DNA of 64,000 nt from Bacteroidia bacterium. Lineage in GTDB: Bacteria; Bacteroidota; Bacteroidia; CAILMK01; JBBDIG01. Location: assembly GCA_040880525.1 (NCBI GenBank), contig JBBDIG010000050.1:1-64000 (forward strand). Reading direction: 5' to 3'. Of the stretch, positions 34,914 to 37,002 are shown in pieces. The position numbers and the translations under genes are program-made. The notes under the pieces are model-generated. The model worked only from the letters and a program-made list of their open reading frames with translations. It searched no databases and was not told where the DNA came from. Position 1 is the first letter of the stretch; every line of letters starts with the position of its first letter.

Positions 34914-35235
34914 TTTTTTTGGATTTTAATAATAGTAAATAGAATCATAATGCGCTTTGCCGGCATCATGATCCTTTGCAGTAAATGCAGGTTCAAAGGT
35001 AAGTCCGGGTGCTTTCTAAAGCCTTATAGAGTTTCGTTTACCCATAGTCTTTTCTTTATGCTTGCCGGTCCGACTTTTTGAAACTTGCGTTATTTTTCAT
35101 TCCGATTATCCAGATATACGGTAAATGACTAGTTCAGATATATAACTTTCGGCCTCACCAACAGGGTCACGATTTTGGAAACAGAACGGGGTTTTCAAGG
35201 AGTTTGTGGGAATTAATCTAACATCATCGGTTTTG
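34914..35235. other. Gene-free divergent region between der and the satD-like gene
   Basis: No open frame with recognisable content is present. It must contain the der promoter. Its right end merges into the repeated operator at 35236-35311. Confidence 0.4.
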
Positions 35236-35311
35236 ACGATAAATGAAAATATCGTCTTAATAAACGATAATACTAAATATCATTGAATTTAACGATATTT
35301 GCTTTCATGAT
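35236..35311 (+). promoter_or_regulatory. Phased 28-bp operator repeats before the satD-like gene
   Basis: ACGATA half-sites start at 35236, 35264 and 35292, exactly 28 bp apart. Each of the first two is followed, after 8 bases, by TATCGT (35250-35255) or TATCAT (35278-35283), forming 20-bp inverted repeats ACGATA-N8-TATCRT. Further diverged right halves CATCAT (35222-35227) and CATGAT (35306-35311) keep the same phase; the last overlaps the ATG at 35307. The layout fits binding sites for a dimeric repressor, possibly the product of the gene itself. Confidence 0.6.
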
Positions 35312-35951
35312 AGCTGTAATAAAAGGTGATATAATCGCTTCACGTAAGCTGACCAATCCTGAGAAATGGCTGAATCCCTTAAAAAAATTGCTGGGTGCCT
35401 GGGGCAAAACTCCCGGACAATGGGAACTGGTTTGGGGAGATTTCTTTCAACTGGAAATTGCCAGTGCTGCGGATGCCTTAAATAAAGCGCTGGAAATAAA
35501 AGCATTGGTAAAAAGTATTGATCCGGTGGACGCAAACAAAAAAATCAGCACGATAGACGTACGGATGGCCATTGGGATTGGTGAAAAGACTTACACTGCC
35601 CCGCGCATATCCGAAAGCAACGGACCTGCTTTTATAAATTCAGGTGAAAAATTTGAAAAACTTAAGCAGGCAAAAAGCACCCTGGCGATACAAACTCCCT
35701 GGGAGGATTTTGACGAGGAAATAAACCTCTACCTGAAACTGGCGGGTACATTTATGGACAGTTGGTCAATTTCTTCGGCAGAACTGATGAAAATAGTATT
35801 GGAGCACCCTGATGCCACCCAGGAGGAAATAGGAGCTGTTTTGGGAATAAAGCAGAATTCCGTAAGTGGAAGATGGAAAAGAGCTAAGGCAGATGAAGTT
35901 CTGGAGATAGAAAACGTATTTCGCAAAAAGCTTAAAGATCGAATACAATGA
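35307..35951 (+). CDS. SatD-family protein with a C-terminal helix-turn-helix
   Basis: The 214-residue cytosolic protein has the SatD N terminus MIAVIKGDIIASR, then ELVWGDFFQLEI (about 40-51), DVRMAIGIGEK (about 88-98) and ISESNGPAFINSGE (about 105-118). The C-terminal part, about 170-194, reads as a helix-turn-helix (ATQEEIGAVLGIKQNSVSGR), so the protein may bind DNA. SatD was named in a Streptococcus acid-tolerance operon, but its activity is unknown. It overlaps the DUF3307 gene by 4 bp (ATGA), and phased operators precede it. The frame extends upstream to a TTG at 35283, within the operator; ATG 35307 is preferred. Confidence 0.78.
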   Translation: MIAVIKGDIIASRKLTNPEKWLNPLKKLLGAWGKTPGQWELVWGDFFQLEIASAADALNKALEIKALVKSIDPVDANKKISTIDVRMAIGIGEKTYTAPRISESNGPAFINSGEKFEKLKQAKSTLAIQTPWEDFDEEINLYLKLAGTFMDSWSISSAELMKIVLEHPDATQEEIGAVLGIKQNSVSGRWKRAKADEVLEIENVFRKKLKDRIQ

Positions 35952-36664
35952 TAGTTTTACTCAAACTATTATTAGCCCACCTTATCGCGGATTTTTTACT
36001 GCAACCCCGCAATTGGGTATTGGATAAAGAACAGAAAAAAGCAGGATCCGGAAAGCTGTATTTGCATGTTCTTCTTCATGGAATATTAACCCTGTTGCTT
36101 TTATGGGACTGGAGTTTTTGGTGGATGGCATTGCTGATTATGGTAATGCATGGCCTCGTAGATATTATAAAACTCTATGCTCAAACTGAAGCTACCCGTG
36201 TGGGATGGTTTATAGCCGACCAGCTATTGCACGGGTTCACTTTGATAGCAGTATGGTATGCTTGGTTTCAGCCGGAATTTCATCCGATTGAAGAGAGCCT
36301 GCATTCTTTGGTTTGGGTCTATGCCACGGCTGTTCTGTTTTTGACAGCCGCCACCGGCATTATCATTCAAATATTATTGACAAATTTCTCAAAACAAATT
36401 TCTGATGGTCCTGATGAATCTTTAGCCAGTGCCGGTAAATATATTGGAATATTAGAACGTCTGTTGATCTTCGTATTTATAGTGACCGGCCATTGGGAAG
36501 GCGTTGGTTTTTTATTGGCAGCCAAATCTATTTTCCGCTTCGGAGATTTGAAAGAATCTAAAGACAGAAAATTAACAGAGTATATTTTAATAGGGACTTT
36601 GCTGAGTTTTGGAATAGCCATCATCACAGGAATTACGGTAGTGGGAATAACGGCTGTTTTGTAA
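35948..36664 (+). CDS. DUF3307 integral membrane protein
   Basis: The 238-residue inner-membrane protein has the DUF3307 start: LLLAHLIADFLLQPRNWVLD (about 6-25), LYLHVLLHGILTLLL (about 38-52), and MHGLVDIIKLY (about 71-81). It then has further membrane segments to about residue 237, around six in all. Conserved His/Asp residues (AHLIADF, HGLVD, DQLLHG) lie near the membrane face and could bind a metal, but nothing is established. It is translationally coupled to the SatD-like gene. DUF3307 and SatD genes are often neighbours, implying a joint function. Confidence 0.82.
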   Translation: MIVLLKLLLAHLIADFLLQPRNWVLDKEQKKAGSGKLYLHVLLHGILTLLLLWDWSFWWMALLIMVMHGLVDIIKLYAQTEATRVGWFIADQLLHGFTLIAVWYAWFQPEFHPIEESLHSLVWVYATAVLFLTAATGIIIQILLTNFSKQISDGPDESLASAGKYIGILERLLIFVFIVTGHWEGVGFLLAAKSIFRFGDLKESKDRKLTEYILIGTLLSFGIAIITGITVVGITAVL

Positions 36665-36727
36665 CGGGCAAATGCTGAAATGGGGTAGAGTTATTTAACT
36701 AGCGTCTTTCATAAGTTCAAAAATAAA

Positions 36728-36760
36728 AAGGCGCTGCAAGTACGAAACTTACAGCGCCTT
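36728..36760 (-). terminator. Intrinsic terminator of tRNA-Lys
   Basis: AAGGCGCTG (36728-36736) pairs with CAGCGCCTT (36752-36760); on the minus strand a T run follows. It starts 19 bases past the tRNA 3' end and also could stop transcription from the DUF3307 side. Confidence 0.7.
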
Positions 36761-36778
36761 TTGTTGGATTCAGGTGGG

Positions 36779-36851
36779 TGATCCCGCTGGGGCTCGAACC
36801 CAGGACCCACGCCTTAAAAGGGCGTTGCTCTACCAACTGAGCTACGGAATC
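36779..36851 (-). tRNA. tRNA-Lys (anticodon TTT)
   Basis: On the minus strand the acceptor stem GATTCCG pairs with CGGGATC (one T-G pair). The D arm GCTC...GAGC, the anticodon stem ACGCC/GGCGT with loop CTTTTAA (anticodon TTT), and T loop TTCGAGC are intact. Length is 73 nt with discriminator A; following bases CC do not complete an obvious encoded CCA. Confidence 0.93.
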
Positions 36852-37002
36852 AAAATGATGCGCTTTTGAAAAAAGCAGTGCAAAGATAGCAGGATAAAAA
36901 TTTCACCCAAGTTTTCTGAATGCTTTTGCCGGCCAGGTCGCTCTGCCGCTCTTGGTAGCGGAATATTTTATAAACTTTGCTCCGCCTAAAATTAAACCTA
37001 AA

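Follow-up and report, generated by a model that had tools for sequence, protein, structure and literature searches.

The operator of the HipB repressor is TATCC-N8-GGATA, it occurs in four cooperative copies, and the spacing between O1 and O2, as read from a published oligonucleotide, is 28 bp (PMC3376134). The satD locus described here resembles hipBA in having an Xre-like helix-turn-helix, TATC...GATA palindromes in several operator copies (putative for satD) and the gene of the repressor, also putative, placed before that of its partner. It differs in the length of the palindrome (20 bp for SatD, 18 bp for HipB), in the cyclase-fold domain predicted at the N-terminus of SatD, in the partner, which is a DUF3307 membrane protein and not the HipA kinase, and in the period of the SatD arrays, which stays at 28 or 29 across widely differing half-sites. 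We consider the hipBA operator pair to be the nearest known precedent for the SatD array, by an analogy in which binding and repression by SatD are inferred.

Other described systems share only some of these traits. Class III cyclases and GGDEF proteins have the fold and strand order predicted for SatD, with an Asp on strand 1 and another in the turn between strands 2 and 3; however, SatD lacks GG(D/E)EF and carries RGDSFQ or WGDFFQ, the class III Asn and Arg are not evident, and there is a fusion to a DNA-binding domain. In Pycsar, a class III cyclase accompanies a membrane or TIR effector, and SatD is likewise a predicted cyclase-fold protein encoded beside a membrane protein but, unlike Pycsar, the pair has no PADLOC match, SatD is a proposed DNA-binding autoregulator and no cyclic-nucleotide domain is recognised in the partner. 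The streptococcal sat operon (SatC/SatD/SatE, acid tolerance) includes a protein of the same named family, and in the open-licence literature that we searched we found no report of an array, a DNA-binding role or a cyclase fold for it. A published transposon meta-analysis reports satD, carried by 178 of 249 S. pyogenes genomes, to be the one accessory gene that is essential in this species, and leaves the finding unexplained (PMC11323703).

Results

The window, i.e. the whole stretch of 64,000 nucleotides analysed, bears in front of a satD-like gene the motif ACGATA at 35236, 35264 and 35292, TATCGT at 35250 and TATCAT at 35278, exactly where a preliminary description made from the sequence alone had placed them. 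That description had read them as ACGATA-N8-TATCGT sites, a register that is off by half a unit: the true repeat unit is a 20-bp palindrome, TATCGT-N8-ACGATA, present three times with a period of exactly 28, and ACGATA-N8-TATCGT is the linker between neighbouring units. Unit 1 (35222..35241, CATCATCGGTTTTGACGATA) has a degenerate left arm, CATCAT at 35222, which had been taken for a weak right half; unit 2 (35250..35269, TATCGTCTTAATAAACGATA) has arms that form a perfect palindrome, and unit 3 (TATCATTGAATTTAACGATA) extends over 35278..35297. No strand is assigned to any of them. We set the unit as TATCGT-N8-ACGATA because 8/28 was the commonest solution in the relatives when the inner spacer could range over 4-14 and the period over 26-31, and because loci with a 29-bp period (such as L011 and L016) keep an inner spacer of 8 while the linker lengthens to 9. 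The claim that the third site overlaps the satD-like start codon did not hold, since unit 3 stops at 35297, nine bases before the ATG at 35307, and what it abuts is a promoter-like element. Another weak right half proposed at 35306 (CATGAT) lacks a matching half and does not form a unit.

In a scan of the whole window for three 6+8+6 palindromes spaced 28 bp apart, position 35222 scored 33 out of 36, and no unrelated position exceeded 26. When the surrounding 330 bp were dinucleotide-shuffled 1000 times, no shuffle got to 33 (maximum, 27). A pattern search for two units with three mismatches at most had the satD array as its sole occurrence in the 3.8-Mb genome, and the reversed control pattern had no match in that genome. 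The array is real, single in its 3.8-Mb genome and well above chance. A regulon in the same genome was ruled out, the genome pattern search yielding no further array even at 3 mismatches.

Relatives of SatD were present in 15 of 100 related genomes, and 80 further loci were drawn from a species-level genome collection. The 160 bp upstream of satD matched themselves at lag 28 with a mean of 0.507 (0.318 when shuffled) and with a harmonic at 56, and the same loci displayed no lag-28 peak at -380 to -220. The best repeat lag was 28 in 86 of the 93 satD loci. A second set was chosen by DUF3307, with some genomes shared with the first; in it, 25 of the 26 loci with a satD recognised by script peaked at 28 or 29, and at least three of the other four carry arrays once satD was located by eye. 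A lack of phased sites upstream of orthologues had been named in advance as a result that would refute an operator array; the sites are conserved, also in loci picked via DUF3307 rather than SatD, and this conservation, like the array itself, is shown computationally.

In Pfam-type SatD loci that are more distant, the peak is at lag 29 (0.414 vs about 0.30 elsewhere) and the palindromes are different, for example TTCAACC...GGTTGAA and GTTTCA...TGAAAC. A plasmid locus of Vibrio lentus presents TTAGCC...GGCTAA three times with a period of 28, and plasmid loci of Sphingomonas and of haloarchaea (the latter with TTCGCC...GGCGAA at 29) are array-like; these are single loci and, individually, weaker evidence. 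Firmicutes and other phyla were sampled through plasmid records only. No clear array was seen at some SatD-DUF3307 loci (L170, L172, L174-L179, the Segatella locus L134, L169 and L190), and L170, L172 and L174-L179 correspond to a Chlorobia-like clade where RHDSW replaces RGDSF.

Instead of operators, the repeats could be a neutral tandem repeat or an array of another type (CRISPR-like, iterons, or some other element of replication or recombination), and one locus (L004) does have eight near-identical 28-bp repeats, as from a recent tandem duplication. However, the units are palindromes joined by 8-bp linkers without unique spacers, the linkers drift within a locus whose half-sites stay constant, and the array sits at the promoter of a single gene family, whose DNA-binding helix varies together with the units (see below). 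We regard this explanation as practically excluded. CRISPR and iterons in particular were rejected on anatomy: a CRISPR has unique spacers of similar length, and only 8-bp linkers are found here.

The half-sites vary by lineage (TATCGT, TATCAC, TATCAT, TATCGG, TATTGC, TATTAC, TATTCC, TATAGG and others), with at least 20 changes on the N-domain tree, and they co-vary with the SatD recognition helix, which in the window comprises residues 183-192 (QNSVSGRWKR; 35853..35882, plus strand). In the window's own clade QNSVSGRW pairs with TATCGT, and QSAVSGRW or QSGVSGRW with TATTGC; other pairings are QAAVSRR with TATTAC, QSSVSE or QSTISE with TATCGG, and QDAISK with TATTCC. Among the 192 protein columns, excess mutual information with the half-site was greatest at 184, 188 and 182, all at the recognition helix. 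In partial Mantel analyses, the correlation of site and recognition helix given the N-domain was r=0.471, a value reached by 0 of 2000 permutations, whereas that of site and N-domain given the helix was r=0.045. With training limited to an N-domain identity <55%, the nearest helix predicted 2.67 of the four variable half-site letters, compared with 1.96 when the nearest N-domain was used and 1.84 for a random choice. The supported independent pairs all agreed (3/3, none disagreeing), a number too small for a sign test.

This co-variation, shown computationally, strongly supports SatD as the array reader, and also the claim that its C-terminal helix-turn-helix binds the array. We consider it very likely that SatD itself reads the array, with the reserve that shared ancestry was controlled only in part and that binding is inferred, there being no binding data. 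The lack of direct evidence for SatD binding leaves room for a different Xre-type regulator, encoded elsewhere, that would bind the array with SatD merely as a target. Against this, the half-site follows the SatD recognition helix after the overall SatD divergence is removed, which a trans regulator would not bring about, and there is a single array in the genome, and we find this alternative very improbable. With SatD as the reader, the approximately 20 half-site changes paired with helix changes represent a natural data set for an Xre specificity code.

The satD-like gene (35307..35951, plus strand) encodes 214 aa, with a predicted cyclase-fold N-domain and a C-terminal Xre-like helix-turn-helix, and its ATG start at 35307 is backed by the alignment (conserved MIAVIKGD). 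The PF16264 (SatD) profile matched residues 2-192 with an E of 5.8e-6 and 26.5 bits, below the cut-off of 29, and several orthologues in the same set exceed that cut-off. The GD...S and GD.FQ motifs are present: G7, D8, S12, G44, D45, F47 and Q48 were invariant in 15 aligned relatives, and D8, S12, G44, D45, F47 and Q48 across 57. The AlphaFold model (pLDDT 95.8) depicted an N-domain of the order strand-helix-strand-strand-helix-strand, for which the top Foldseek matches in the PDB were GGDEF and class III/adenylyl cyclases (probability close to 1.0; the TM-score to the target was moderate, at most 0.53). The N-domain is thus predicted by the model to adopt a nucleotidyl-cyclase (palm-type) fold with two invariant Asp. 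The first presumed metal-binding Asp, Asp8, belongs to the GDI motif of strand 1 (codon 35328..35330, plus strand) and the second, Asp45, to GDFFQ between strands 2 and 3 (codon 35439..35441, plus strand); we take both to sit where cyclase-fold enzymes bind metal.

In the alignment, the GG(D/E)EF motif is absent (WGDFFQ in the window SatD and RGDSFQ in most relatives) and the SNGxAFxxSG segment has no conserved N..AR as judged by eye, leaving no evident counterpart of the transition-state Asn and Arg of class III enzymes. Therefore, catalysis is undecided, and we see no reason to prefer an enzyme over a nucleotide sensor for the SatD N-domain, nucleotide activity being in any case inferred. 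As to the other end of the protein, the SatD profile matched the HipB helix-turn-helix (E 0.002), HipB being the closest among solved structures. A natural loss case was observed at L012, where a degenerate SatD (reverse strand, around 1498-2124) has both presumed metal-binding Asp replaced (GK, GN) and retains the helix-turn-helix, with neither a DUF3307 neighbour nor an array.

The consensus of the Bacteroidota -7 promoter element is TAnnTTTG. An element one mismatch away from it, GATATTTG, lies at 35294..35301 on the plus strand and has a 4-bp overlap with unit 3. TAnnTTTG-like elements were located no more than 25 bp from the ATG in 38 of 93 loci (2.1 expected) and, accepting T or G at the first position, overlapped the array in 52 of 90 (10.3 expected). 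A sigma-70 scan disclosed promoter-like sites at no more than chance level, a result that is expected for Bacteroidota. The last unit stops 7-10 bp short of the ATG and overlaps the -7 element in the window clade and in several further clades, whereas in many Flavobacterium loci it ends about 32 bp before the ATG and a second TATATTTG is found downstream of it; there, the last unit itself often contains TATATTTG.

The overlap between array and promoter element is shown computationally and, therefore, autorepression is favoured, although activation is not excluded. SatD could bind the array as an activator or architectural assembler (e.g. a filament of cyclase domains) recruiting RNA polymerase, and the distance and downstream TATATTTG of Flavobacterium could suit upstream activation. 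However, this is at odds with the position of the last unit over the -7 element in the window clade and several others and with the frequent inclusion of TATATTTG in that of Flavobacterium, and a positive loop would leave satD essentiality unexplained, so that we judge activation unlikely. Autorepression remains our preferred reading, and the earlier proposal that SatD represses its own two-gene unit is thus supported by inference from the overlap with the -7 element, with no expression data.

The gene of the DUF3307 membrane protein (35948..36664, plus strand; 238 aa) overlaps satD by 4 bp (35948-35951), as previously indicated. This gene pairing is general in our set and shown computationally, DUF3307 being the next gene after satD in 93 of 97 loci, with the 4-bp overlap in 68. 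The PF11750 (DUF3307) match (E 1.1e-25, 90.5 bits, above the cut-off of 23) covers only residues 3-109, where H11, D15, Q19, H40, H44, H68, D72, K75, D91, Q92 and H95 are invariant. With so many invariant His and Asp, DUF3307 might be a metal enzyme, a possibility that we raise tentatively; its model (pLDDT 90.8) found no match in the PDB. Outside the Pfam match, a C-terminal ILER...AAKS...TEYILIGTLLS domain (about residues 157-220; 36416..36607, plus strand) was found in every SatD partner type examined, including minimal ones only about 106 residues long (E 6.7e-7) and those that accompany SatD families without DUF3307 (E 1.5e-22 on comparing profiles). Since partners with and without DUF3307 have it in common, the ILER membrane domain appears to be the constant output of SatD systems, and DUF3307 is likely one optional addition. 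The "membrane system" of the preliminary description is accordingly refined: SatD has a predicted cyclase-fold domain, and the constant part of the partner is the C-terminal ILER domain and not DUF3307. Rare unpaired DUF3307 genes were seen downstream of ThiF-like genes, with no SatD immediately upstream (L171 and L173).

Discussion

We believe that the satD operon likely has the array as its operator and SatD as its autorepressor, in a scheme where binding, direction of regulation, nucleotide ligand and partner toxicity are all inferred. SatD dimers would bind each 20-bp palindrome through the Xre-like helix-turn-helix, and adjacent dimers 28 bp apart would cover the promoter beside the satD start codon, thereby repressing both satD and the membrane protein translated with it. 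Sensing or signalling would fall to the predicted cyclase-fold domain at the N-terminus, which has the two conserved Asp; nucleotide binding or turnover may alter how SatD assembles on the array and so free the operon from repression. The output would be the membrane partner, probably harmful when uncontrolled, and therefore SatD would act like an antitoxin-type repressor. Two uncharacterised families would in this way gain a concrete mechanism, SatD as a putative cyclase-fold DNA-binding autoregulator and DUF3307/ILER as the membrane output that it would control. The essentiality of satD in S. pyogenes fits a repressor of a harmful partner, and this, if true, would be a simple explanation of that puzzle. 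Nevertheless, the support is indirect, toxicity is inferred and a polar effect on neighbours is not excluded, so that we regard it as no more than a possibility.

An extension of this explanation, which does not contradict autorepression, is a nucleotide-signalling defence or addiction module in which SatD would make or sense a nucleotide under phage or stress, the ILER protein would then disable the cell and the array would merely keep the module silent. The predicted cyclase fold with both Asp conserved speaks for it, as do the satD-DUF3307 pair being the main non-backbone cargo of the 3.8-kb plasmid pEC34A, its vicinity to a Pycsar effector and a cyclase in Sphingomonas insulae and to DUF4365 or HEPN genes on other plasmids, its occurrence in haloarchaeal plasmids, and the fact that satD is essential though accessory in S. 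pyogenes (PMC11323703). Against it, there is no PADLOC match, the pair is absent from the phage and viral collections searched, the evidence from neighbours is anecdotal, and Flavobacterium upstream flanks are alike across species (by eye), which suggests stable inheritance. On balance we lean slightly against a defence module; small-plasmid cargo and a Pycsar neighbour are hints of a defence or addiction role that is possible but rests on anecdote. A bolder reading is that of a widespread undescribed class formed by a nucleotide-sensing or nucleotide-making autorepressor and a membrane toxin (constant ILER and exchangeable N-terminal modules, e.g. DUF3307), kept silent by a ladder of 28/29 bp in bacteria as well as in haloarchaea, with a role in stress or phage defence; we hold it to be possible but less likely than not. 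A phage origin was rejected, nothing being found in the phages or viral contigs searched, and so was a known defence family, as no PADLOC match was obtained.

Some minor observations concern the surroundings of the pair. In E. coli pEC34A (L180, 1792-3481) and a Klebsiella plasmid (L191), both of roughly 4 kb, the non-backbone cargo consists mainly of a SatD-like protein and a DUF3307 protein of roughly 330 aa, and complete E. coli genomes matched only the pEC34A backbone, not this cargo. In a Sphingomonas insulae plasmid (L190, 1242-5192) the SatD-like/DUF3307 pair has as direct neighbours genes for a Pycsar effector, an E2-associated protein and an adenylate/guanylate cyclase. SatD-DUF3307 pairs are also found in Archaea, on haloarchaeal plasmids (L182 and L183) with TTCGCC/GGCGAA palindromes 29 bp apart upstream. 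In the window, just downstream of the DUF3307 gene and on the minus strand, there are a strong terminator-like hairpin (36726-36762) and a tRNA-Lys (ttt) gene (36775-36852).
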